64,000 nt of DNA from Prevotella sp. (GTDB lineage: Bacteria > Bacteroidota > Bacteroidia > Bacteroidales > Bacteroidaceae). Shown here piece by piece: positions 249 through 15,676 of the stretch; the stretch's first letter is position 1, and each line of letters begins with the position of its first letter. The position numbers and the translations under genes are program-made. The DNA lies in assembly GCA_024697645.1 (NCBI GenBank), contig JAILFH010000089.1, positions 25,320 through 89,319 on the forward strand. Reading direction: 5' to 3'. The notes under the pieces are model-generated. The model saw only the letters and a program-made list of their open reading frames with translations. It was not told the DNA's origin and did no database searches.

Positions 249-2339
249 TTATCTGACAATGTACTTCGAACCGTTCTTAATAACGACGCCCTTGTAGTTC
301 TTAGAAACACGCTGACCAGCGAGGTTGTAGATTGCGTCATTGCTGCGGACGGTATTGTCGTTCACGTTGTTGATGCCAGTATCGGTACCAAACTCATAGG
401 GAGAAGTGCCTGCGCCTTCCTTCACGTAGAAGTTCTTAGTGCCAGTCTGGTCGATCAGAGACTCTGTGCTGGCCTCGTCTCTCCAGATAACATCGGTGAT
501 GTAGTAGTCGCAAGCAGCCTTGATCTCAGCCATATTGAAGGCGATAGACTTCATGCCGTCGGCCTCAGAAGGAACGGTGAATGTAGTCTCGAAGTTCTGC
601 CATTCCTCAGTGAAGTTGAAGGTGCCGAGGCAATTCCAGTGCAAGTAAGCACCTGGCTCACCGTGACACTGTGTGCCGCTCGTAGCAGGAATAGAACTCT
701 TGTATCTGAAGGAAATAACAGTTACCTCACCAGCAGAAAGAGTGCGGTTGGCAATGATGAAGAACTGGTTGTCCCAAGGCTGGCCTTCACCACCTTCTTC
801 CTCATTGATAGTGCCATCAGAGCCGTCGGCAAGGTCGTCGCGCTCCTGACCCTTCACAACCACTTCCGTCGGGTTGGGATCAATCTGGATAACCGGCTTG
901 TCGATGATTTCCTCACCTTCTAACTGAACGAAGTTGATTGACTTGTATTCAGTATCGATAGAAATCTTCCACACACCAGCAGCGGGGAGTTTGATCTTGG
1001 CGTTAGATCCTTCAGTGTAGTCGTACCACTCGTCCTCACCACTCTTAATATTGGTTGTGGAAGGCTTGATGGTACCGCCCTTGAACGAAGCATTGTGGCC
1101 GCGAACAGTAGAAATCATCAACTCATTGACCCAACTGTCTTGCTTGCCCTGTGTACCAACGGTAGCAACAAGCAGGCCATCGCCGCCATCAACAAACTCA
1201 ATAGCATTGTCGAAGTCGTACTCAATACCTGTAGTGGTGTTGGAAGAAGCAACGAAGAATCCGTGGTCGAGTTTCATTTCAGACAGAGAGATGTCGTCGA
1301 TATAGAAATCAACAGCATCCTTGACATTCGGGTTCAGGTTGAATGCGATAGAATAAGCATCGGTTGCTGCATCAGGAACTGTGAATGTCTGGTCGAAATC
1401 CTGCCAAGCCGTTGTGAAGGAAACATCACCGATAGCCTGCCAGTGGACATAGTCAGACGGAGTCTGATGGTGGAACTGGGTGTTTGTAACAACGTCCTGA
1501 GAAGCCTTGTAGCGGAAATGGATCTTGTACTGTGAGCCAACCTTCAACTGCTTCGGAGACTGGATCCAGAACTGGTTGTCCCAAGCAGAGGCATCGCCCT
1601 CAGTATCGGCAATGGCTGCATGAACGACGAACACGTGAGAACCGTCAACCTCTTCGATGTCGGCAGGATATGGGTTCCAAGCGCCATCCTCATTCAGGTT
1701 CTTACCCTTCACCTTACCCCAAGCACAAACGAACGTGTTCCTTTCAGAATCGTTATAGACTACGTCGGCAAGACCCAGGTCGGCCCACGATTTCTCAGCA
1801 TCACCATTGGTGAGCAACTCAATCCACTCTACGGGCTTCTGGTTGCCGCTTTCCTCGTGGGTAATCTTCAGATAGGCGATATCCCAATCACCAACATAGT
1901 CACCACACTGCATGAGGATGTTACCGCCGGAAGCATCTGTGCACTCGTAATCGACAGTTCCCTCAACCCAATCAGTCGTGATGGGGAATTGTCCATAAGG
2001 TGTCTGTCCGAATCCAAGCATAGATACGTTCTGGGCAACAGAACCCTTAATCTTGTAATGAAGCGTATAGACAACGCCTATCTCAGCACTGACACCACCG
2101 ATAGGATGGAACTGGCAGTCCCAAGAGGGGTCAGTTGCTTCCTCACTATGGAAGTGAAGACAACCATCCTGAATGGTGAGACGGGCTACTGCCGATTCAC
2201 TGGCGCCCCAGCCCGCAAACTTAAACTCCGAAATGTCGGAATACTTAGAGAAGTCGACTTCAGCATCAACTACCTCTACCGCCTTTGCCCCCATGAAACA
2301 TGCAAGGAGAACAAAAAGAGTAAAAATTTTCTTCATCAT
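249..2339 (-). CDS. Secreted protein with about three CBM4/9-like beta-sandwich modules and a Prevotella-type C-terminal tail
   Basis: Signal peptide MKKIFTLFVLLACFMGAKA. Repeated module ends such as WQDFDQTFTVPDAATDAYSIAFNLN and WQNFETTFTVPSEADGMKSIAFNM. C-terminus IYNLAGQRVSKNYKGVVIKNGSKYIVR. Last gene of the minus-strand xylan operon. Confidence 0.7.
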   Translation of the reverse strand: MMKKIFTLFVLLACFMGAKAVEVVDAEVDFSKYSDISEFKFAGWGASESAVARLTIQDGCLHFHSEEATDPSWDCQFHPIGGVSAEIGVVYTLHYKIKGSVAQNVSMLGFGQTPYGQFPITTDWVEGTVDYECTDASGGNILMQCGDYVGDWDIAYLKITHEESGNQKPVEWIELLTNGDAEKSWADLGLADVVYNDSERNTFVCAWGKVKGKNLNEDGAWNPYPADIEEVDGSHVFVVHAAIADTEGDASAWDNQFWIQSPKQLKVGSQYKIHFRYKASQDVVTNTQFHHQTPSDYVHWQAIGDVSFTTAWQDFDQTFTVPDAATDAYSIAFNLNPNVKDAVDFYIDDISLSEMKLDHGFFVASSNTTTGIEYDFDNAIEFVDGGDGLLVATVGTQGKQDSWVNELMISTVRGHNASFKGGTIKPSTTNIKSGEDEWYDYTEGSNAKIKLPAAGVWKISIDTEYKSINFVQLEGEEIIDKPVIQIDPNPTEVVVKGQERDDLADGSDGTINEEEGGEGQPWDNQFFIIANRTLSAGEVTVISFRYKSSIPATSGTQCHGEPGAYLHWNCLGTFNFTEEWQNFETTFTVPSEADGMKSIAFNMAEIKAACDYYITDVIWRDEASTESLIDQTGTKNFYVKEGAGTSPYEFGTDTGINNVNDNTVRSNDAIYNLAGQRVSKNYKGVVIKNGSKYIVR

Positions 2340-2455: not shown

Positions 2456-4195
2456 TCATTGTCCGCTGAGGGCATCGCAGAATGCCTTATAGGTGGCATT
2501 GCGTACCCAGTCCTTGCTCTTGCTGTCGACAGACCAGAGACCTACGGGGTCGGTGGTGTCGGCGAGGTTGCCCTTACAGATACCAGCCTGTTTGTCGTGA
2601 GGAATCTTATTCATGTAAGTCTTGATGACATAACCATAGTAATCGGCCAACTGCTGACGCTGGGCTTCCGTGATTGCTGCCGCTGAGACAGGAGCGCCCG
2701 CAGCATCCTGATACTTAATGTCGAAATTGGAGAGGCGGACGAGTTTTCCCGTAGAGGCAAGATTCGCGAGAAGGCGGTCGAGAGAAGCCTTGTTGGCCTC
2801 CTGCTTGGCGGGATTCTCGCTATAGGTGAGATTCAGTTTGGCATTGATGCCGTCGATCTTCGCTCCGTTGGCGTCCCAGATGCCAATCCAGTACTTGAGG
2901 CTCTCGAATACCTTCTGCTGCTCAAGTCCGGTTTCGCTGATAAAGAACTTCAGTTCTTCGGGTACTCCGCCATACTTCTCGAAAGCAGCACGAGCCACTT
3001 TTGATACCTCAGGCGCATAGTTGGCGCTTCCGAGAATATCCTGCCAGAAAATCTTCTCGGTAGAATGCTTGAGGTCGAGCATACCGTTCTCCAATTCAGC
3101 CGAGGGATCAATGGGTTCGTCAATCAGGTCGAACAACTTGATGCGACCGGCATTGATTTCCATCAGTTTGTCGCACCATGTGTCGATGGCATAATTGATG
3201 GTGTCGTTCAGTTCCTGCGCAGTCTGTGGACGATGGTTGTCGGGATAGTAGCCTACCTCCACCTTCTGGATATAGACAGGAGCGGAAGGCGTATTGTCGA
3301 TTCTCAGGTAACCTTCAGTCGCGTCGGGAGCACTTTGTGCCTCGACCACAATCTTCTGCCATTTACCGGGCTTGCAGATCCACTTTCCATCAGTACCGCT
3401 TCCGTCGATTCTATTACCGGAAAAGTTTACATAGAAAGATGCTTCCTTGTCGGCCTTTGCCCAGAAGACAATCGTATACTTAGCAAGCGGATCGACATCG
3501 AAACCTTCGATGATGCGTACTTTTGCTCGCTGATTGATCTTGAGCGTGTTCTGATCATCATACTTGGTAATTGAAGCACTTCCGCTTTCAATGGTACCTG
3601 TGTAGTTGCCTACAGGCATATCGTTGAAGTTGACGGTCTTTCCCTCTACGTAGTCGACAGGGACTTCAATGGGAGCCGTGAGCGTGGCCAGCCATTCGTC
3701 GGCCTGATTGGCATTAGCGAAGAGCGGACTGCCGTAGACCTCATAGCCGATTTCTTCAACATGGGCGAGGAGGTCGCTCATATCGAGGAAATTCATCACA
3801 CCCTTGGCGTTGACAATAGAACCAGACATCAGGGACGTGCCGAAAGCAACATTGTCGAAGTTGGTAACGGCGGCAGCATGAGCCAGTTCCTGCTTGTTGA
3901 AATCAACCACCTTCAGCAATGCGCCGAGCGACATGTTCGGATAAGCCTCCCTATTGATGTAGTCCTTAACGGGGTTCAGATCCTTATACGGCTCCACGAA
4001 AGCAGGGTCGGGCTGAGCAGTGAAATCGTCTGTCTCATTATAGTCAGCACAGGAGGAAACGAAGCATGAAGAAAGAAGAATGAAGAATGCTGTTGCAAGC
4101 AACTTCACCGACGTTTTCTTGCGTCTTTTCTCTGCTATAAATTTCTTTTGTCTCATATCTTTATCAATTTTAAACCACCATGAAAAATTCTTCAT
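2456..4195 (-). CDS. GH10 xylanase-like lipoprotein with an inserted CBM, probably catalytically inactive
   Basis: Lipobox SSCFVSSCADYNE. GH10-like YPNMSLGA, FDLIDEPID (acid/base region) and EEL.FFISETGLE. CBM-like insert VNFNDMPVGNYTG...VYIQKVEVGYY. Nucleophile motif reads LSNFD instead of xTELD. Confidence 0.75.
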   Translation of the reverse strand: MKNFSWWFKIDKDMRQKKFIAEKRRKKTSVKLLATAFFILLSSCFVSSCADYNETDDFTAQPDPAFVEPYKDLNPVKDYINREAYPNMSLGALLKVVDFNKQELAHAAAVTNFDNVAFGTSLMSGSIVNAKGVMNFLDMSDLLAHVEEIGYEVYGSPLFANANQADEWLATLTAPIEVPVDYVEGKTVNFNDMPVGNYTGTIESGSASITKYDDQNTLKINQRAKVRIIEGFDVDPLAKYTIVFWAKADKEASFYVNFSGNRIDGSGTDGKWICKPGKWQKIVVEAQSAPDATEGYLRIDNTPSAPVYIQKVEVGYYPDNHRPQTAQELNDTINYAIDTWCDKLMEINAGRIKLFDLIDEPIDPSAELENGMLDLKHSTEKIFWQDILGSANYAPEVSKVARAAFEKYGGVPEELKFFISETGLEQQKVFESLKYWIGIWDANGAKIDGINAKLNLTYSENPAKQEANKASLDRLLANLASTGKLVRLSNFDIKYQDAAGAPVSAAAITEAQRQQLADYYGYVIKTYMNKIPHDKQAGICKGNLADTTDPVGLWSVDSKSKDWVRNATYKAFCDALSGQ

Positions 4196-4198
4196 TCA

Positions 4199-5341
4199 TC
4201 ACTTCACGTATTTGGGCGTGAAGAATACTTTCTGATTAGACTCACGGGTCTGAACGACAAGCGTATCGTTGGTTGACACCTGAATATCGCTGTTTTCGAA
4301 ACTTACATTGTAAGCCAGACGGAGAATATCGCGCTGAACGGGCTCTCCTTCGTTGCTTCCCCACTGATAGTCCTTATATTCCGAACGCTCTGTGCCATTG
4401 GTAATGAATTCGCCAGAACCAGTGGCCGTTACGTTCTCATCGTCAGTGGAAATGGTGCATGTGTTGCCGTTGAACGTGAGGATGAGGTTGCAGGAAATGG
4501 ATGCGCCGGAAGTCTTGAACGATACCGGGAAGATGGCCTGCGACATGTTCTTGGTTGTGATGCCGCAGACTTCATCATTCTGGTTGACGGGATTCTCCTT
4601 ATAACGCTCCACATCTGTGTTCACGAGTGAGAAATCCTTGCGTACAATCGTTGTAGTCTCTCCCTTTTCAGTCACATTGTCGACGCCTCGGCGAATATAT
4701 TTTGCCTGCCACGGGTTCATGTATTTCACGCAGTAGAGCACATAGTCCTTGGCGAGAATGTCCCAGTCTTCGGTGTTGGTGCGGGAAGGCGAGAGACCTT
4801 CGCGCGGTTTGCCCGTAAGAATATGGTCGATGCCCCGTACGCTCTTCATCAGAAGGGGTATGACGTAGGTATTCTCTATGGCCTTAGGGTCGTTGAAGAA
4901 AGCATCAGTGAACTGTACTTCTACATAACCGCGAGTATCACCATTGTAGGGAATGACATTGGATGCGAGTTTATAATATGATGTCGGCATTGGAAGCACC
5001 GGTGACGCTGCATTGCCGCCTTCATCCACAAACCAGAGATTGTCGCAGAGTGACTCGTCGACGGCAATCTCGGCATAGGCGTCGCGTCCGCCATAGGCTC
5101 CACCCATCGTAGAATAGATCCGGCACTTGTGCTCGTTGTCGATGGCGTTGTCGTAGATGTCATTGCCAAGTACAAGTGTGCGTACCGGGAACTGATAGGC
5201 GAAGTAGGCTGTGGTGCCTCCTTCGTAGTCGGGGAACTCATGGTCTGCATTATAGCAGGACGTAAGTGCTACGCTAAATGACAACTGACAAATGATAAAT
5301 GATAGAATTATCAAGCGTCTCTTATTATTTTTGGTAATCAT
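4199..5341 (-). CDS. DUF1735-type surface glycan-binding lipoprotein (XusE-like position)
   Basis: Lipobox VALTSCYNADHEFPDYEGGTTAYFAYQFPVRTLVLG is characteristic of DUF1735/BT_3987-like proteins. Directly downstream of the second susD. Confidence 0.75.
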   Translation of the reverse strand: MITKNNKRRLIILSFIICQLSFSVALTSCYNADHEFPDYEGGTTAYFAYQFPVRTLVLGNDIYDNAIDNEHKCRIYSTMGGAYGGRDAYAEIAVDESLCDNLWFVDEGGNAASPVLPMPTSYYKLASNVIPYNGDTRGYVEVQFTDAFFNDPKAIENTYVIPLLMKSVRGIDHILTGKPREGLSPSRTNTEDWDILAKDYVLYCVKYMNPWQAKYIRRGVDNVTEKGETTTIVRKDFSLVNTDVERYKENPVNQNDEVCGITTKNMSQAIFPVSFKTSGASISCNLILTFNGNTCTISTDDENVTATGSGEFITNGTERSEYKDYQWGSNEGEPVQRDILRLAYNVSFENSDIQVSTNDTLVVQTRESNQKVFFTPKYVK

Positions 5342-5401: not shown

Positions 5402-7291
5402 CTATTGCCAACCTTTGTTTTGTTTGAGGTTGCTCCATTTGAGTACTTCGCTCTTAGGGATAGGTCCGTAACACTGGTAAGAGTTGTTGTAATTGCGTTC
5501 CTCGACATTAATGATGGTGTAGGAGAGTTCGCCCGTTTCTTCGTTGCGGTCGATCTTCATTCCCTTCACAGTTTCATCGAGAGGCAACAACCAACGACGA
5601 AGATCCCAGAAACGCTTGTTCTCAAAGCAGAGTTCAAGACGGCGTTCGTTGCGAATCAAGTTGGTCATCTTCACCTGATCGTTGGCACATTCTTCAAGAT
5701 AGACATCACCTTCGGGGAGTTTGCGACCAAATTCGTCGGTGCCAAGACCTGCACGCTCGCGGATGGCCTTAATGACGTCGTAGGCTGTGAAGCCGACGTT
5801 CGTAGGATCAGCCTTGGGTCCCCAGGCATCATTGGCTGCTTCGGCGTAGGCCAGGAAGATTTCGGTGTAGCGGATGCGAGGATAGATGTGCTGTTGCTCA
5901 ATCAGTGAACTTGACAGCGGGCTCACATCGTCGCGAAGCAATTTCTTCAGGTAGTAGCCTGTGCGTGTGGATCTGTCGATGCTGTTGAGATTGTCGTCAG
6001 TCTCGGACTGATCGCCATGAATAGCAGGATAAGTACCCGTAATGATTTCATACTTCTTGGTATGGAAAACGGTACCATTGTAGATGACATCGTCGGTCAG
6101 ACGAAGGTCGCGGTTAGCATACGGATTATTGGGGTCGTAACCGGAATTGGGATCTGTGATAGGACGTCCGCTGCGCATGGGGAAAGCGTCGACAAGGTTC
6201 TGGGACGGGTTGACACGACCCTGACCATACAATGTCGGCGGATAGTTTTCTCTTTCCTGATCGGCATTCTTATGGCGGTCCTCACGCCAGAGAATCTCAG
6301 GCATCTCAGCCGCACTGGGCTCAAGTTTGGGTTTGTTCTTGTACCAAACATTACCTGTCGTGTCGAATCCTTCTAACCCGCCGATACGTTTGAGTACATT
6401 GGCACAAAGCGTTGCTGCTTCGGCAGAAGTCACACCACTCTGTTCGCGGAATGCAGGACTGGCGGCAAGCAGGGCGACCTGAGCCTTGACAGCCTCGGCA
6501 ATACGACCAGAGAGAAGATTCTTAGCCTTGGTGCCAAACACGAGGTTATAGCCAGAGGCATTTGCGCCCAACTGCCTGTATTTCTCAGGAATCTGGGTCT
6601 CCGAACCGATGTCTTCATAATCGGTAGGGAGAAGAAGCATAGCGCTGTCGCAGTCGGCAAAACACTGCTTAACACAGTCGGCAAATGTGGCGCGAGACTG
6701 ATTGAAGTCGGAACCGCCATCCTCGAAAGTGGTCAGCAGGGGCACACCGTATAGGGTACCATCGTCAGCATAGCCTCCGTGGGCCTGCAGCAGATAGTAA
6801 TAAAGAATCGCGCGCAAGCCGAATGCCTCACCTTTCAGACGGTCGACGAACATCTGCTGCTTCGAAGCAGCACTCGGTGCCCATTTCACCTTCTCTACGA
6901 TCGTGAAGAAAAGATTGATATACTGTATTCCATCCTTACAGTTGTTCCACTGAGACATCGGGTTATTGTCGGAAGCCCATGTTCCTGTTGCCATATTCAG
7001 ATAATTGCTCGTCTTCAGGTTGGTGACAGCATCGTCTGTGGCAATGTCGGTTGTCGTGGTCGTAAGGTAAGGAAGTCGTCCGTAGCCATACATCAGCAAG
7101 CCATAGGCATACAGAGACTCTTCCACCATGTCGTCGGCCTGTCGCTTGTTTTCATCTGCTGGCTCGAACATGTCATCACATGAGGTGAGCAGCACTGCAC
7201 TAAATGAGAAACTGCAGATGATCAATAATAAACTTATCAGGCGTCTATAGATATTTTTGGTAATCATAATACTGAATTTTACTCTTTTCAC
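5402..7291 (-). CDS. SusD/RagB-like nutrient-binding outer membrane lipoprotein
   Basis: LLTSCDDMFEPADE lipobox. SusD C-terminal motif IRYTEIFLAYAEAANDAWG...RNERRLELCFENKRFWDLRRW. Confidence 0.92.
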   Translation of the reverse strand: MKRVKFSIMITKNIYRRLISLLLIICSFSFSAVLLTSCDDMFEPADENKRQADDMVEESLYAYGLLMYGYGRLPYLTTTTTDIATDDAVTNLKTSNYLNMATGTWASDNNPMSQWNNCKDGIQYINLFFTIVEKVKWAPSAASKQQMFVDRLKGEAFGLRAILYYYLLQAHGGYADDGTLYGVPLLTTFEDGGSDFNQSRATFADCVKQCFADCDSAMLLLPTDYEDIGSETQIPEKYRQLGANASGYNLVFGTKAKNLLSGRIAEAVKAQVALLAASPAFREQSGVTSAEAATLCANVLKRIGGLEGFDTTGNVWYKNKPKLEPSAAEMPEILWREDRHKNADQERENYPPTLYGQGRVNPSQNLVDAFPMRSGRPITDPNSGYDPNNPYANRDLRLTDDVIYNGTVFHTKKYEIITGTYPAIHGDQSETDDNLNSIDRSTRTGYYLKKLLRDDVSPLSSSLIEQQHIYPRIRYTEIFLAYAEAANDAWGPKADPTNVGFTAYDVIKAIRERAGLGTDEFGRKLPEGDVYLEECANDQVKMTNLIRNERRLELCFENKRFWDLRRWLLPLDETVKGMKIDRNEETGELSYTIINVEERNYNNSYQCYGPIPKSEVLKWSNLKQNKGWQ

Positions 7292-7302
7292 TTATCACTT
7301 CA

Positions 7303-10296
7303 TTACAGGGTAACCTTGACACCGAGGTTATAGAAACGAGTCTGTGGCGCATAGCCAACGCTGGTTTCCATCAACTTGCGGTTCTTTGAAATTGTGAGCA
7401 GGTCGTTTCCGTTCACATAAACAGAGAGGGACTTCACCCATTTCCCATCAAACATTTCCGACGGGAAGTCGTAAGTCAACTGTACCTTGCGAAGGTTGAA
7501 ACGGTCGGTGCTGTACATCCAGAATGTAGATGCTGCACGATTGTTGTTCGAACTCAGCGTTGTCAGACGTGGATGCGTAGCAGTATTAGCAGTCTCCGGC
7601 GTCCAACGACCACGAACGTTCACAGAGTACTTAGCCTCTTGATCCATATAGTAGTAACTCGTGCCGCCACTGTTCTTCATTGCATAAGCGCCGAACTGGC
7701 CATTACCGAGCACAAAGAGCGTGAAATTCTTATACTTGAGCGTAAGGTTCACGCCAACGAACCAAGGAGTTCCGATGCTGCCCAAAGGATTGCTGTAAGG
7801 ACTGGCGGTAGGATTACCTCCGTCGTCAAAAACAGTAATGGTGCCCGACTTGCCAAGAACGACCAAATCCTTATTGTCGATTCGGCCATCACCATTGACA
7901 TCTTCGTACTTCAGGTCACCGGGCTGGATGCTACCACCGATAGCAGGAGTCGGGAGTTCTGACTTCAGCGTGTACTTCGTGGTGCCATCATCGCTGGTGG
8001 TCACATTAAAATCGTTCAGAGAATAGAAGCCCTGACACTTATAGCCCCAGAGCGCATCAAGAGCCTGACCTTCCAAATATTTGTGAGATGCCAAAGGATC
8101 TATCGTCTCATCGTACTTCTTCCATTTTGTGGTGAGATAAGTACCAACGACTCCTAAAGTAGCATCAACTTCACCGATCTTCTTCTTGAGCGTGACGCTA
8201 AAGTCGACACCCTTACGGTTCTGTATGTTATTGTTGATGGCCGGCATGAATGAACTTCCAGAAAGACCACCCTGCAAGTGAGAGGGGAAGGTAGTCAGAT
8301 TCTGGACAATATAGCCAGACATATCCGTATTGAAGAAACTAAGGTCGGTAGAGATCAACTTGTTGAAGAAGGAACCTCTCAGGCTTACCGACCATTCCTT
8401 GCGTTGAACGAAACCGAGGGAGGGATTGACACCCATTGTGGAATAAGTATAACTTGCAGTCGTTCCTTCATTCCATGAGAATCCGCTACCCTTCTGGTTC
8501 CATAAGGCATCATAGATATAGAAGGTATTGTCTTTCAGATAGACATCAATATCTTCTTTCAGATCGCTGTAGGAAGCGCTGAGCATCAGGTCGTCGACGA
8601 AACTTCCCTCCATGAAACTCTCTTTGGCGATGTTCCAACCGAGGGTGAACGAAGGTGAAATGGCATTGCGCTGGTCTTTGGGAAGGCGGGCAGAATGAAC
8701 GCCTGCCATTGCTGCTTCAGCAAAATAACGCCCCATATAGTCGTAACCTAACTGCAGACCTAAGTTTGCATTTGCATAACGATGGTATGTGCCACTTGTC
8801 GTTGTCGTAAACATATTGGCGAGCAACATTCCCGTTACATGATGCTTGGCAGCAAAGGTGTGGTCGTAGTCGAAATGGCCATTCCAACTAATGGTCTGAC
8901 GATATTTCGTATCCGACATAGACATATGACCTGTCACCACTTCGTCGTTCTGCTGGGTAATTGCCGTGATGACGTCCTGTGAATTATAGTTACTCCACGT
9001 TGGAATGAACACAGCGTACTTATTGTTGTATGAAAGACTGTAGTTGGCAGCATAGTCAATAGAGAACAATGTCTTGAAGGACAAACCCTTCAGGAATTTG
9101 TTCATGTCGTAAATGATTCCTGCATCAAACTGGAACTGACGACTGACGTCCTTTGTTCTACCACCAAAATAGCAATCTGCAATGGAGTTAGTCTGGGTGG
9201 CCTTTGTTCCGCCGGGGAAATACTTTCCGTCAAGAAGATTGAGCGACTTGCCCAGGATGGCGAGTGCCTTACTGGCATTCGGGTCTACCATATCAATAGG
9301 AATCAATGGTGCGGCATTCTCCGGGAAGTTTGGACGCATACTGGCCGCATCACCCCAGAAGTTACCCTTATTCTTATTGGCGTTATAGAAGGTGGCGCTC
9401 ACGTTGGCAAAGCCCTTGATGAGTTTGTTGACTACGAGATCCACATTACCACGTACGCTAAAACGGTCGGTGTAGTTGTCCTTAGCCGGACCGAAGTTGA
9501 TGAGATCCTCGAAGCGATAGTAGTTGATGTTTGTGTAGAAGTGGGCACGCGCTCCACCACCCTGGATTTCCAAAGTCCCTTCAGAACGGTTATACACCTT
9601 ACGAATATAATCGGAGGAATAGTAGTTCACGTTAGGATAACGATATGGATTAACACCCAAGGCATGGTTGTATATCTCCTGTTGCGAATAGCGGGGACCT
9701 GTGGGCAATTGGTCGTTCATACATGCCTCGTTATAGAGCGTCATGTACTCCGCAGAGCCAAGATACTCTGGAAATTCCTTGGCCACATGGAAACCTGTAT
9801 TCGCGTTTGCCTGAATCTGAAGGCCGTCCACCTTACCGCGCTTGGTAGTAATCAAGATAGCACCCTTTGCTCCCTTGGCACCATAAAGCACCACTGCCTG
9901 AGCACCCTTAAGGAAGGTAATCTGCTCTATTTCAGAAGGAAGCACATTGTTCGACGGACGCTTCACACCGTCGATAATAACGAGCGGCAGATTGCTGTTG
10001 TCGTTATTGTCGAGACGTTCATTGTCCATACCCCAAAGGTTGTTGCCATTCCATCCACCGACAAGCGCATACATGTCTTCAAGGCTACTCATCGTATAGT
10101 CCTTCCTCTGCAATTCTTCCATATCCACATAGGAAATGCCTCCCAGAAGATGGTCGGGATCCTTATCGCGGAAAGCGACATGGACTTTCTTTTTTGCCGA
10201 GACAGAATCCGCCTCATCGGTGGTCTGTGCATTGACCGCAAGCGGTGATGCAGCGAGCATGGCAAAGAGAAATATGTTTATTTTTATACTTTTCAT
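7303..10296 (-). CDS. SusC/RagA-family TonB-linked outer membrane protein (lacks the N-terminal carboxypeptidase-regulatory domain)
   Basis: Plug motif LVIIDGVKRPSNNVLPSEIEQITFLKGAQAVVLYGAKGAKGAILITTKRG. C-terminal ...RFYNLGVKVTL. Confidence 0.92.
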   Translation of the reverse strand: MKSIKINIFLFAMLAASPLAVNAQTTDEADSVSAKKKVHVAFRDKDPDHLLGGISYVDMEELQRKDYTMSSLEDMYALVGGWNGNNLWGMDNERLDNNDNSNLPLVIIDGVKRPSNNVLPSEIEQITFLKGAQAVVLYGAKGAKGAILITTKRGKVDGLQIQANANTGFHVAKEFPEYLGSAEYMTLYNEACMNDQLPTGPRYSQQEIYNHALGVNPYRYPNVNYYSSDYIRKVYNRSEGTLEIQGGGARAHFYTNINYYRFEDLINFGPAKDNYTDRFSVRGNVDLVVNKLIKGFANVSATFYNANKNKGNFWGDAASMRPNFPENAAPLIPIDMVDPNASKALAILGKSLNLLDGKYFPGGTKATQTNSIADCYFGGRTKDVSRQFQFDAGIIYDMNKFLKGLSFKTLFSIDYAANYSLSYNNKYAVFIPTWSNYNSQDVITAITQQNDEVVTGHMSMSDTKYRQTISWNGHFDYDHTFAAKHHVTGMLLANMFTTTTSGTYHRYANANLGLQLGYDYMGRYFAEAAMAGVHSARLPKDQRNAISPSFTLGWNIAKESFMEGSFVDDLMLSASYSDLKEDIDVYLKDNTFYIYDALWNQKGSGFSWNEGTTASYTYSTMGVNPSLGFVQRKEWSVSLRGSFFNKLISTDLSFFNTDMSGYIVQNLTTFPSHLQGGLSGSSFMPAINNNIQNRKGVDFSVTLKKKIGEVDATLGVVGTYLTTKWKKYDETIDPLASHKYLEGQALDALWGYKCQGFYSLNDFNVTTSDDGTTKYTLKSELPTPAIGGSIQPGDLKYEDVNGDGRIDNKDLVVLGKSGTITVFDDGGNPTASPYSNPLGSIGTPWFVGVNLTLKYKNFTLFVLGNGQFGAYAMKNSGGTSYYYMDQEAKYSVNVRGRWTPETANTATHPRLTTLSSNNNRAASTFWMYSTDRFNLRKVQLTYDFPSEMFDGKWVKSLSVYVNGNDLLTISKNRKLMETSVGYAPQTRFYNLGVKVTL

Positions 10297-10339: not shown

Positions 10340-12448
10340 TTACCATCCAGGGTTCTGTGGGAATCCTTCGTAAAGATATATATCCTTATCGGGAAGTGGG
10401 AACCAGTAGTGCTTAGATTCCAGACGACGGGTGATGAGTTCCTTCTTGGTGAAGTTACCAACATGTGCGTCCTTGGGATCATGACTTTTGAACCAATCCC
10501 ACGGATAGAGCGGTTCTGATCTCTTCTTGCCTTTCTCATCAATTTGATTCTCCTCAAAGGACTTGTTCGGGTCGTAATTGCCCCATTCCAGTCGCTCAAA
10601 TTCATGAGAGTATTTCATTGTGTAAGGAGGCTCCGTCAGGAGAAGCCAGCGTTGGAGGTCGCACCAGCGGAAACCTTCGAAAGCAAGTTCCACAGCGCGT
10701 TCGCGGCGTACTTCATCAATAAAATGCTCACGAGTGTCGCGAAGATTAGCGGCAACATGCTCCATAGGATAATCGATTGAGTTCACTCGATCGCGGAGTG
10801 CGTTGATGGCCTCTACGGCCGACAATGTGGTACAATACATGGGTCTTTCGTTCAATTCACTTACATTCGTTGCAATAGCAGCCTTGGCCTCTGCATACAT
10901 CAGATAGACATCAGCCAGACGCATATAAGGAATATAAGACTGGAAAGCGTACTCCCAATCGTACCATTTATCGCCGAAATTACACTGGTGAGGCACCAAT
11001 TTCTGAATGAAATAACCCGTGCTGCTTCCATGGTCGATGTCGCGCATAGCGCCACCCGTGTAAAGGTCGCAATATTCAAGTTTCTTCTGCTCTGCCGACA
11101 GGGGGTCTGTACTGAGAACATAGTGGAAACCGTCGAACACAAAGTCATGATAGAATCGTGGGTCACGATTCTTAAAGGGATGCTCAGGATCCCAGCCGGA
11201 ATTGGGGTTCAGCACGTATTCACCATTCTGAACCAGATAGATGGGTTGTCCGTTAGCCATACCGTATTGGTCGACGAGGTTAGCGGTGGGATGATGAATG
11301 ATGTTGTCGTGCTCTACAAGACCGGAAACCTTAGGACCGAAAATCTTTGCACAGTTCCAGTTGGCGGAATTGACTCCTGGATAAGCACCGCGGAAGATGG
11401 CTTCTGTAGTACCAGGCATATTCCAACTCTGCTTGACCGTATAGAAGATGTCAGAATAGTTGGTCTCTGAATTTTCATCACGCTCGTGATCGTAGATATT
11501 TGAATACTTATACTCAGCAAGTTTGTATCTTACGGTACCCTTGTTGACCATATCAAGCGCCTTTCCGAGTGCCTCTGCTGCCAAACGGCAGTACTTGACA
11601 TCGTAGTCATAAGTCTTGCCATTGGAACTTGCACCCAACAGTTGGGCTACACCACCATCCTTGGTCTTCTCGAACTCCTTCATCAGCGGAGAACCTGCCC
11701 AAAGATAGCACTTGCCAAGATAGCAGAGCGCCATGAACTTATTGACACGAAGTTCGTTCTTTCCTGATGTCTGCATACCGGCCAGAGTTTCATCCCAATC
11801 CAAAGGAAGAAGATCGTAGGCACGTTCGAAGTCTTCAGCACAACGGTCAGCACATTCCTGGAAAGAAAGACGAGGAAGTTCTGGAATGTTGGAAGCCTCA
11901 AAAGCCTGATCAATATAGGGGAGACCTCCGAAGTAGCACATCAGTTCGAAATGCCACCATGCACGGAAGAAATACATCTGACCAAGCAACAGGTCGCGCT
12001 CTTCATCAGTTCCTACGAGTGACTTAATCTGCTCAATACCCATGTTGCATTTACGAATGCTGTACCATGAGTTTCTCCAGAGCGACTGGTCGCGGCCATT
12101 GAAGTTGTTACCCATGAGCCAGCACTGGTTGTTATTCAGCCAGTTGCGATAGTTGCCAAGGTCCACCTGATGATCCATATGTGCATAGCCTTCAGGGTTA
12201 TGAACAGCATCATCGCCAAAATTCCATGCGGTACAATAATTAACCTTCTCCTTGTCAGGTATCAGGTTATAGATTTCCTCAATATATCCCTGGAAGTTGC
12301 GGAAGTTCTTGAATGCCTCATCTTCTGCCACGATAGACTCCGGATCTTTTTCGAGCCAGTCGGTGCACGACGTAAGCGAAGCGCCAACAGCCAACGAGAG
12401 CAGCAAACTCCACAAAAGGGATTTTATGTTATTATAATATTTAATCAT
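10340..12448 (-). CDS. SusD/RagB-like nutrient-binding outer membrane lipoprotein
   Basis: LTSCTDWLEKDPESIVAEDEAFKN. IPYMRLADVYLMYAEAKAAI...RRERAVELAFEGFRWCDLQRW. Confidence 0.93.
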   Translation of the reverse strand: MIKYYNNIKSLLWSLLLSLAVGASLTSCTDWLEKDPESIVAEDEAFKNFRNFQGYIEEIYNLIPDKEKVNYCTAWNFGDDAVHNPEGYAHMDHQVDLGNYRNWLNNNQCWLMGNNFNGRDQSLWRNSWYSIRKCNMGIEQIKSLVGTDEERDLLLGQMYFFRAWWHFELMCYFGGLPYIDQAFEASNIPELPRLSFQECADRCAEDFERAYDLLPLDWDETLAGMQTSGKNELRVNKFMALCYLGKCYLWAGSPLMKEFEKTKDGGVAQLLGASSNGKTYDYDVKYCRLAAEALGKALDMVNKGTVRYKLAEYKYSNIYDHERDENSETNYSDIFYTVKQSWNMPGTTEAIFRGAYPGVNSANWNCAKIFGPKVSGLVEHDNIIHHPTANLVDQYGMANGQPIYLVQNGEYVLNPNSGWDPEHPFKNRDPRFYHDFVFDGFHYVLSTDPLSAEQKKLEYCDLYTGGAMRDIDHGSSTGYFIQKLVPHQCNFGDKWYDWEYAFQSYIPYMRLADVYLMYAEAKAAIATNVSELNERPMYCTTLSAVEAINALRDRVNSIDYPMEHVAANLRDTREHFIDEVRRERAVELAFEGFRWCDLQRWLLLTEPPYTMKYSHEFERLEWGNYDPNKSFEENQIDEKGKKRSEPLYPWDWFKSHDPKDAHVGNFTKKELITRRLESKHYWFPLPDKDIYLYEGFPQNPGW

Positions 12449-12460
12449 AGTTGTACGCCA

Positions 12461-15400
12461 TTAAATGTTAAGTTTAATTCCGAAGTTGTAACGTCTGACA
12501 GTAGGATAGGCACCGCCTCCGCCACTCCATCCATAGTTACTCTCACGGTCGTCAGGCATCTTGGTAATCAGGAAAAGGTTGTTACCATTGAGGTAGATTT
12601 TCAGACTTGTGAATCCAAGTTTCCTAATCCAGCCCTTCGTCCATGTATAGGCGACTTCAACGTTCTTCAGTCTGAAGTAAGAACCGTCGTAGAGATACTG
12701 TGTTCCATCGTTGTATGAAACTTGAGTCGTGAAGCGAGGTACGACAACCTCACCTGTTCCATCTACAGCATTCCACCATTTACCATTATCATATACGGTG
12801 AGAAGTTTATTATTGAAAGAGGGGAGACCTACGTCACGCGTAACACCCGTGACGCCATAGAGTTGGGCAAACATGCTGAAGCCCTTCCACTCCCATCCGA
12901 TGGTAGCATTGTAGGTGTGCTCAGGATTTCCTGTATAGCCGTAAGGAGCCTGGTCGTTTGTTTCATCAACGACACCGTCACCATTAAAGTCGACGATATA
13001 GTGGTCGCCGATAAGAACCTGACCGTCGTCCTTTTCACGCGCAGGCGTACCATATAGTTCATCATAAGAGCCGATAAAACCTTTATCAATGAACGACCAG
13101 TATTGTCCCTGAGAATAACCCTCAGCCTTACGGTAACTCGGAATCAGTTTGGGATCGTCTTTCAACTTAATCACATTGTGTGCATAGGTATAGTTGGAAT
13201 TAACCCAGAAACGCATACCGTTCTTCAGCACCTTGTTGAAGCGAAGTTCAATTTCGAAACCAGTATTCTTAATCTTACCCTTATTGATGTCAGGAGTCTT
13301 TGCTGCACCAAAATAAGAAGGAACCGAGCGGTCGGCACCTGATATAAAGATGTCATAACGGTCGTCACGGAACCAGTCGAAACTACCGGCAAACATACCG
13401 CCGAGGAATCCGTAGTCGAAACCAAGGTTCTTCTTCTGAACCGTTGCCCAGCGAAGGTCAGGCATAGCAATCGTGGCTTCCTTATAGGCTACGAAGGGAC
13501 TTGCCGAACCGTCAATAGACATATTGAAACCATCTCCGTTGTTCATAACTTCCCAACCAGTCAGGTAAGCGAAGCGGGCACCGGCACTATCATCACCGAT
13601 CTCACCAAATGAACCACGAATCTTGAGCATATCAACGATATTTCGATCTTTAAGAGATTTCATGAATTTCTCTTCAGACACCATCCAGCCTACTGCTCCT
13701 GAACAGAAGAATGCAAAACGATTGTCGGGTGAGAATCTCTGTGAACCGTTGTAGGCTCCATTGAACTCTGCAAAGTACTTGCTCTTATAATCATAGGTGG
13801 TACGGAACACCCAGTCTTCACGACGATTTTCGAGGTCAGCATTACCTGCATCGATACGACGCTTCCAGTTGCCCATGAGCGTCAAGTTATGGTCGCCGAA
13901 CTGACGTCCCCAGAATAGTTGGAGCGACATTTCGGTTGCACGGTATGTATAACTGACGTCACCTGCCCTGACATCCCAGTCGCGGCTCTCATAGAAGTCG
14001 AAACCAGTATTATCATAGATGGCCGACTCAAATAGTAGCAGTCCGTCCTCAGGAAGCATGTATGCTCTACTGTTCTTGTGACCTTCGGCAGAAATACCAC
14101 GGGTTCCCTCATCGAAGCGGTTGTCCCAGGAAATCGTTCCTCTTGCAACAAGTCCCTTCGTGATGAAATCGAGTTTCTGCTCGAGTGCAAAGTCAGTGTA
14201 TACACGTGTGATGGTTTTCAACTCATAACCTGCTGTAGCCACACTCATCGGAGAGTTCTCGATGTTGGAAACCAGTGGGTAGTAACCCCAGGCCCCATTG
14301 GAGAACTGAACAGGGAAAAGGTTGGGCGCCATACCATAGGCACCTGCCCACTTCTGCTGCTGGAAGAACTCGCCGCTATTACCATAATAATAACGAGGCG
14401 TCTTCTGCTGGGCATTAGAACCTGCCAGATTCACCTTGAACTGAGTGGTCTTCGTAATTTGGAAGTCAAGATTTGAACGTACATTCAAACGATTATAGGA
14501 GTAACCACCTTCATAGCCCTGATGGTTATCCCAAAGTTTTGTCATATCACCTTCATTCTGAAAGTCAAATGCTACGAAATACTTTACATACTCCGTACCA
14601 CCATAGATGTTGAGGTTTGTATTATATGACAAAGCAGTATTTTTGAACATCTCTTCCTGCCAGTCAACATTCGGATAACGCTCTGCCTGACTGTAGTCGC
14701 CAAGGTAGGAACCATCAGCAGTATAGTTTGACAAAACCGTATGATCCTGATTGCGGAAATTATTGATGAAGGTCTGTGGACGATAATATGCCCACGATGC
14801 GGCTCCGCCTATGGCAAGTTCATGCTCGATGGCCTGATTACGGTACATATAACCGTCATAGGAGTCGTACTTGCGTGGCAGTTTTGATACGGCCTTTAAG
14901 GTAGCATTGAAGCCAACATCAATTCTTGCCTTACCCTCCACACCACGTTTGGTGGTAATAAGGATAACGCCGTTAGCACCTTCCACACCATATACAGCAG
15001 TGGCAGATGCGTCCTTCAATACCGAGATTGTTGCCACAGACGTGATATCTACTGACTTGATCTCACGCTTGACGCCATCGACGAGAACCAGTGGCTGAGC
15101 ATCCTGATTCCAGGCAGCAGCACCACGGATATAAATTCGTGGGTCTTCTTCACCTGGCTGACCCGTAGAAGCAATTGTCGCAATACCGGGTAGATTACCT
15201 GTAAGGGCAGCACTGACACTACCTATACCGGCTGCTCGTTCAAGCACTTCACCTGTTGTCTGGGTAATGGCTCCCACCACAGAGGCTTTCTTCTGCTGGC
15301 CATAACCGACAATAACCACTTCTTCAAGTTGGGTATCATCATCTTCCAAAGTCACTCTGTTTACTTTATCAGATGTAACTTTTACTTCTTTCTCTTTCAT

Positions 15401-15676
15401 GCCGACGTAAGTCACTATAAGAGTACCCTTACCTCCTGGCATATTTAGCGAGAAGTTTCCGTCGATGTCGGTAATAGTTCCATTCGTACGATTGTCTTTT
15501 TGGACAACTGTTGCACCTATTACCGCCTCGCCGCTGCTGTCAATGACGACACCCTTGACTAAACTTTGACCGAATGATGGTAATGAGAAAACCACCATAA
15601 GCAAAGCCAGAACCGATGTCTTTGAAGATTTCTTGCACATAACAAGATTGATCATCATTTTCAGTTTTTTTGTCAT
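12461..15676 (-). CDS. SusC/RagA-family TonB-linked outer membrane protein
   Basis: N-terminal carboxypeptidase-regulatory domain VKGVVIDSSGEAVIGATVVQKDNRTNGTITDIDGNFSL. EEVVIVGYGQQKKASVVGAI. LVLVDGVKREIKSVDITSVATISVLKDASATAVYGVEGANGVILITTKRG. Confidence 0.97.
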   Translation of the reverse strand: MTKKLKMMINLVMCKKSSKTSVLALLMVVFSLPSFGQSLVKGVVIDSSGEAVIGATVVQKDNRTNGTITDIDGNFSLNMPGGKGTLIVTYVGMKEKEVKVTSDKVNRVTLEDDDTQLEEVVIVGYGQQKKASVVGAITQTTGEVLERAAGIGSVSAALTGNLPGIATIASTGQPGEEDPRIYIRGAAAWNQDAQPLVLVDGVKREIKSVDITSVATISVLKDASATAVYGVEGANGVILITTKRGVEGKARIDVGFNATLKAVSKLPRKYDSYDGYMYRNQAIEHELAIGGAASWAYYRPQTFINNFRNQDHTVLSNYTADGSYLGDYSQAERYPNVDWQEEMFKNTALSYNTNLNIYGGTEYVKYFVAFDFQNEGDMTKLWDNHQGYEGGYSYNRLNVRSNLDFQITKTTQFKVNLAGSNAQQKTPRYYYGNSGEFFQQQKWAGAYGMAPNLFPVQFSNGAWGYYPLVSNIENSPMSVATAGYELKTITRVYTDFALEQKLDFITKGLVARGTISWDNRFDEGTRGISAEGHKNSRAYMLPEDGLLLFESAIYDNTGFDFYESRDWDVRAGDVSYTYRATEMSLQLFWGRQFGDHNLTLMGNWKRRIDAGNADLENRREDWVFRTTYDYKSKYFAEFNGAYNGSQRFSPDNRFAFFCSGAVGWMVSEEKFMKSLKDRNIVDMLKIRGSFGEIGDDSAGARFAYLTGWEVMNNGDGFNMSIDGSASPFVAYKEATIAMPDLRWATVQKKNLGFDYGFLGGMFAGSFDWFRDDRYDIFISGADRSVPSYFGAAKTPDINKGKIKNTGFEIELRFNKVLKNGMRFWVNSNYTYAHNVIKLKDDPKLIPSYRKAEGYSQGQYWSFIDKGFIGSYDELYGTPAREKDDGQVLIGDHYIVDFNGDGVVDETNDQAPYGYTGNPEHTYNATIGWEWKGFSMFAQLYGVTGVTRDVGLPSFNNKLLTVYDNGKWWNAVDGTGEVVVPRFTTQVSYNDGTQYLYDGSYFRLKNVEVAYTWTKGWIRKLGFTSLKIYLNGNNLFLITKMPDDRESNYGWSGGGGAYPTVRRYNFGIKLNI

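Follow-up and report, generated by a model that had tools for sequence, protein, structure and literature searches.

pGH10, a Probable Xylan-Binding Surface Lipoprotein with a Predicted Inactive GH10 Fold in Rumen Prevotella

BACOVA_03431 from PUL-XylL of Bacteroides ovatus is an inactive GH10 protein that resides on the surface as a lipoprotein and binds xylan; at the time of its description, no other naturally inactive GH10 was known to the authors (Rogowski et al. 2015, PMC4491172). The product of the adjoining gene, BACOVA_03430 (PDB 3N91), does not bind xylan (PMC4491172). An analogy is provided by the GH18-fold chitin-binding lectins, which keep a glycosidase fold and glycan binding but have lost catalysis (PMC4491172); these belong to a different family from the protein described here, and no homology is claimed. 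The active counterparts are the surface enzymes Xyn10C, BACOVA_04390, and Pm25, which retain both catalytic glutamates and the residues of subsites -1 and -2. In the Xyn10C-type Pm25, the barrel is reported to be split by an insert after strand β3 (PMC7848910).

The window analyzed here, a stretch of 64,000 nucleotides from a Prevotella sp., encodes a GH10-fold protein, termed pGH10. It shares with Xyn10C, BACOVA_04390, and Pm25 the fold, the CBM4-like insert after β3, and the xus-type operon, but has lost the catalytic and subsite residues that these enzymes keep. Its gene is the sixth of seven on the minus strand, in the order susC-susD-susC-susD-3N91-like-pGH10-CBMx2 (Table 1). The first-pass annotation had given the open reading frame, its strand and coordinates, and the codon of residue 490 correctly. 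A GH30 gene lies downstream of the operon, and plus-strand genes at 23.6-36.2 kb of the window encode a GH8, two GH43, a GH31, and esterases, including one of the BD-FAE type.

Table 1. Features of the pGH10 operon and positions of interest within pGH10 (window coordinates)
Feature	Coordinates	Strand	Remarks
SusC-like TonB-dependent transporter 1	12461..15676	-	Pfam
SusD-like protein 1	10340..12448	-	Pfam
SusC-like TonB-dependent transporter 2	7303..10296	-	42% identical to B. ovatus counterpart
SusD-like protein 2	5402..7291	-	Pfam
BT_3987-like_N + DUF5627 protein, 3N91 (BACOVA_03430) homologue	4199..5341	-	PDB match, E 6.5e-65
pGH10, predicted inactive lipoprotein of GH10 fold, carrying a CBM4_9-like insert	2456..4195	-	579 aa
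CBMx2, secreted, two CBM_4_9 domains	249..2339	-	always directly downstream of pGH10
Lipobox Cys49, predicted lipid anchor	4049..4051	-	invariant; from sequence
Residues 119-123 (GTSLM) for the GNxMK / ENEMK region	3827..3841	-	subsite -2 Asn/Lys lost
Residues 156-161 (SPLFAN) for HTLxWH	3713..3730	-	Ser156 and Asn161 invariant
CBM4_9-like insert, ~residues 183-318, after β3	3242..3649	-	Pfam + AlphaFold
Glu360, former acid/base position	3116..3118	-	Lys in five deep relatives
Lys453, in place of subsite -1 Gln	2837..2839	-	Glu in the same five Lys360 relatives
Asn490, in place of catalytic nucleophile Glu	2726..2728	-	invariant, 79/79
Lys541-Gly542 for Gln-Trp	2570..2575	-	subsite -1 Trp lost; Lys541 invariant

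The arrangement is maintained among relatives: the 3N91-like (DUF5627) gene lies directly upstream of pGH10 in each of the 76 loci whose contigs reach that far, and CBMx2 directly downstream in 78 of 78. CBMx2 harbors no catalytic domain and varies more than any other protein of the operon, at 33-71% identity to the window copy; it is possibly a second xylan-binding protein. A fusion of CBMx2 to a GH10 was considered and ruled out, as CBMx2 is a separate open reading frame and the GH10 found downstream in some loci is a different gene.

Pfam assigns Glyco_hydro_10 to residues 330-530 of pGH10 (E 1.2e-10), with a PF00331 score of 41.6 bits against a cut-off of 22.1, and gives a CBM_4_9 match at residues 189-300 that falls under the curated cut-off (E 3.4e-4). 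An NCBIfam search with pGH10 returned no match. Because phmmer matches to GH10 structures in the PDB are weak (E 0.06), the fold was not assigned on the basis of sequence alone. AlphaFold prediction from the single sequence was unusable (pLDDT 42), while an input alignment of 72 family sequences yielded a model with a mean pLDDT of 88. The 50 PDB matches that Foldseek listed for this model are without exception GH10 xylanases or designs on the GH10 fold, the best of those listed having an E of 9.8e-15. By sequence as well as by fold, pGH10 belongs to the GH10 (β/α)8 barrels, and the earlier description of a GH10 barrel with a CBM-like insert is borne out by Pfam and by the AlphaFold model with its Foldseek matches.

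In clan GH-A barrels, the acid/base is located at the end of β4 and the nucleophile at the end of β7. In the pGH10 model, Glu360 directly follows strand 354-359 (β4) and residue 490 directly follows strand 485-489 (β7), so that the structure prediction which the first-pass annotation had put forward as a check returned a GH10 match with both residues at the expected barrel positions. Alignment of the pGH10 profile with active Bacteroidales Xyn10C by hhalign (E 6e-103 over 528 columns) pairs RLSNFD with RVSEMD/SELD, and the nucleophile glutamate is therefore replaced by asparagine. Active GH10 enzymes have two catalytic glutamates; in pGH10, the β7 residue is Asn490, and no alternative glutamate occurs within 10 residues of it. 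The glutamate-to-asparagine replacement, which had been proposed from the sequence, is thereby confirmed by the hhalign pairing, by the strand position in the model, and by the presence of Asn490 throughout the family.

The losses extend beyond the nucleophile. In the profile alignment, YGSPLFANANQ of pGH10 lies opposite YGHTLAWHSQQ of active Xyn10C, GINAKLN opposite GIGTQMH, and AGICKGN opposite WGICQWC. In place of the residues of the active type, pGH10 has Ser156 (for His), Ala160 (for Trp), Asn161 (for His), Asp359 (for Asn), Lys453 (for Gln), Asn455 (for His), and Gly542 (for Trp). The residues conserved at subsites -1 and -2 of active GH10 enzymes (Asn, Lys, His, Trp, Gln, His, Trp) are all replaced, in agreement with the earlier suggestion that further subsite -1 residues are missing. 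With the nucleophile and the subsite -1 His, Trp, Asn, Gln, His, and Trp all substituted, the alignments and the model strongly support a loss of catalysis in pGH10.

The former acid/base position requires separate consideration. The motif had been described as kept, which holds for pGH10 itself but not strictly for the family: among 79 sequences, position 360 is Glu in 72, Lys in five, Asp in one, and Gly in one. All five sequences with Lys360 carry Glu453, nearly all others carry Lys453, and the single Gly360 sequence has Gln453. On the tree, the Lys360/Glu453 state corresponds to one event and the Gly/Gln change to a second. The joint exchange of Glu/Lys for Lys/Glu suggests a salt bridge, and Glu360 is probably the partner of Lys453 rather than a spare catalytic function; reversion of Asn490 to glutamate (N490E) alone would therefore not be expected to bring activity back. 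The prevalence of Glu360 could be taken to favor residual hydrolysis by another route, such as an inverting reaction employing this residue. However, the Lys, Gly, and Asp variants at this position and the replacement of the remainder of subsite -1 make such a route highly improbable.

A locus scan identified 78 relatives of pGH10 from rumen and gut Prevotella, mostly rumen metagenome-assembled genomes together with Prevotella sp. P5-92. N490, S156, N161, M123, and K541 are present in all 79 sequences (78 relatives and the window copy), and the alignment of Prevotella proteins suggested in the first-pass annotation thus finds Asn490 invariant, far beyond what chance would give. The lipobox cysteine C49, which was read from the sequence, is likewise invariant across 72 family sequences, as are A50 and Y52. 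As one of the six seed peptides of the scan was NFDIKYQD, a possible ascertainment bias towards SNFD has to be considered. An independent whole-genome search of 301 genomes of the bacterial family, which is free of this seed bias, gave the same picture: the matches with at least 65% identity to pGH10 all have SNFD (10 of 10, including the window's own copy), while of the matches at or below 38% identity that were read, nearly all retain the nucleophile glutamate. For pairs with usable dS, dN/dS is 0.07-0.23, indicating purifying selection on a gene that is not decaying. A pseudogene or a sequencing artefact was ruled out by the open frame, a dN/dS far below 1, and the existence of relatives across the family (79 sequences in all).

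The closest described counterpart was located through a genome with a 100% identical copy of 3N91, in which SusC, SusD, SusC, SusD, 3N91, a GH10-like protein, and GH30 follow in order; by operon position, this GH10-like protein is taken as BACOVA_03431. Like pGH10, it is a GH10-like protein with a lost nucleophile, a disrupted -2 subsite, and a lipoprotein signal (read from sequence in pGH10), encoded directly behind a 3N91-type gene that itself follows two susC/susD pairs, with GH30 downstream. In contrast, the two sequences are distant (27% over the BLAST-aligned part) and their lesions differ. The B. ovatus protein, of about 750 aa, has SDLS at the nucleophile and an asparagine at the acid/base (IIGNP), whereas pGH10 has SNFD, Glu360, and a smaller insert.

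These likenesses raise the question of whether catalysis was lost once or more than once. GH10 trees were built without the catalytic columns and without the insert. In the free tree, the Prevotella pGH10 group and the BACOVA_03431 group are weakly joined (90/65), and this join, together with the common operon position, is what a plain orthology would predict, with a single loss predating the split of Prevotella and Bacteroides. However, the join is a meeting of two long branches. When the Bacteroides dead group is left out, the Prevotella pGH10 group clusters with the active Xyn10C of Prevotella (99/100), and when the Prevotella group is left out, the Bacteroides dead group falls with Bacteroides-type active Xyn10C (100/100). 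The nucleophile lesions also differ between the groups, and constraining both as one clade costs 6.3 lnL, although at a p-AU of 0.32 the constraint is not rejected. A single ancient loss is accordingly regarded as doubtful. The pGH10 family probably arose independently from Prevotella Xyn10C, parallel loss being favored by these trees but not proven. A wider reading, offered tentatively and held at somewhat less than even confidence as a whole, is that Xyn10C-type xylanases of Bacteroidales have repeatedly and independently become surface proteins that bind xylan without catalysis, each time at the same place in the operon, and that the newly evolved Prevotella pocket, with its invariant Ser156, Asn161, Asn490, and Lys541 and a putative E360-K453 salt bridge, might read a specific xylan decoration.

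The role that best accommodates the data, and a likely one, is that of a dead GH10-fold surface lipoprotein that holds xylan in the manner of BACOVA_03431 and probably arose independently by duplication and subsequent decay of a Prevotella Xyn10C. As the lipobox suggests, pGH10 would be exported and attached through a lipid anchor to the outer face, next to both SusC/SusD pairs. The insert, the locus, and the B. ovatus counterpart are consistent with a role in which the CBM4-like insert and the remodeled barrel cleft both hold xylan chains, and the active site residues suggest that the chain is gripped but not cleaved. Xylan may thereby be concentrated for SusD/SusC and for separate active xylanases. 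The repurposing as a surface glycan-binding protein proposed in the first-pass annotation is thus supported by the lipobox cysteine, the linkage to SusC/SusD, the purifying selection, and the BACOVA_03431 precedent.

Two other roles have to be weighed against this one. The barrel could be a mere scaffold, with the CBM4-like insert doing all of the glycan binding and the cleft no longer in contact with sugar, as might be expected from the loss of all -1/-2 residues checked and from the active relative Pm25, whose xylan binding is mostly due to its two inserted CBM4s (PMC7848910). Against this, barrel columns are more conserved than those of the insert (major-residue frequency ~0.81 vs 0.65), which is weak evidence because active enzymes show the same contrast, and the substituted residues of the cleft do not vary, suggesting that the cleft is under selection; a pure scaffold is rather unlikely. 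Alternatively, pGH10 could bind a partner protein (e.g., the SusC/SusD complex or Xyn10C) or a cell-wall glycan other than xylan, as the xylan-reading subsite residues are gone and 3N91 itself, the homologue of the adjacent protein, bound no xylan (PMC4491172). Such a target is considered improbable given the xylan-type enzymes at the locus (GH8, GH43, and feruloyl-esterase-like) and the binding of xylans by BACOVA_03431 (PMC4491172). A xylan-holding pGH10 is retained as the preferred reading.

Active-type xylanases are also encoded in the genomes examined. In that of the window, full-length GH10s with intact catalytic motifs are found on contigs C21, C87, and C78; the last is a paralogue of the Xyn10C type, its motifs reading SEMD and VNEA. 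This paralogue (L116:2133-3986, minus strand) has no obvious lipobox and lies near a xylose isomerase-like gene, outside the operon of the window. Nine further genomes with the dead GH10 all hold additional strong GH10 matches. An additional GH10 is located downstream of the dead GH10 in 13 fetched loci, with Xyn10C in four of them. Three loci from rumen Bacteroidaceae (L055, L063, and L070) harbor, 2-3 kb downstream of the dead GH10, an open reading frame of 1318-1326 aa; its GH10 domain is of the active type and most closely resembles the C21 GH10.

Since BACOVA_03431 was described in 2015, an inactive xylan-binding GH10 is an already known kind of protein; the present reading is well supported by that precedent and is not conceptually new. 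What is new is a large conserved Prevotella family with lesions differing from those of BACOVA_03431 and a remodeled site of its own. No earlier description of this family was found in the open-access papers searched. The single oddity described in B. ovatus thereby becomes a widespread and conserved element of the xylan loci of rumen Prevotella. Going by a Pfam match alone, pGH10 would be annotated as a xylanase, and annotations of this kind therefore overestimate the capacity to cut. Should parallel loss prove correct, the two groups constitute a repeated natural experiment in the conversion of a glycosidase cleft to a lectin.

Two further GH10-like proteins were encountered. In a B. ovatus-like genome (G320), a second, also apparently dead GH10-like protein (L152:4302-6059, minus strand) adjoins another DUF5627 gene; it has SDLN at the nucleophile and a cysteine at the acid/base (IASCP), and appears distinct from BACOVA_03431. 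A Xyn10C-type protein at L122 (G290:C8:14000-19000) has glycine in place of the nucleophile glutamate (SGLD) and HTLCWH degraded to GALCSHKKQ, making it a possible further inactive GH10.
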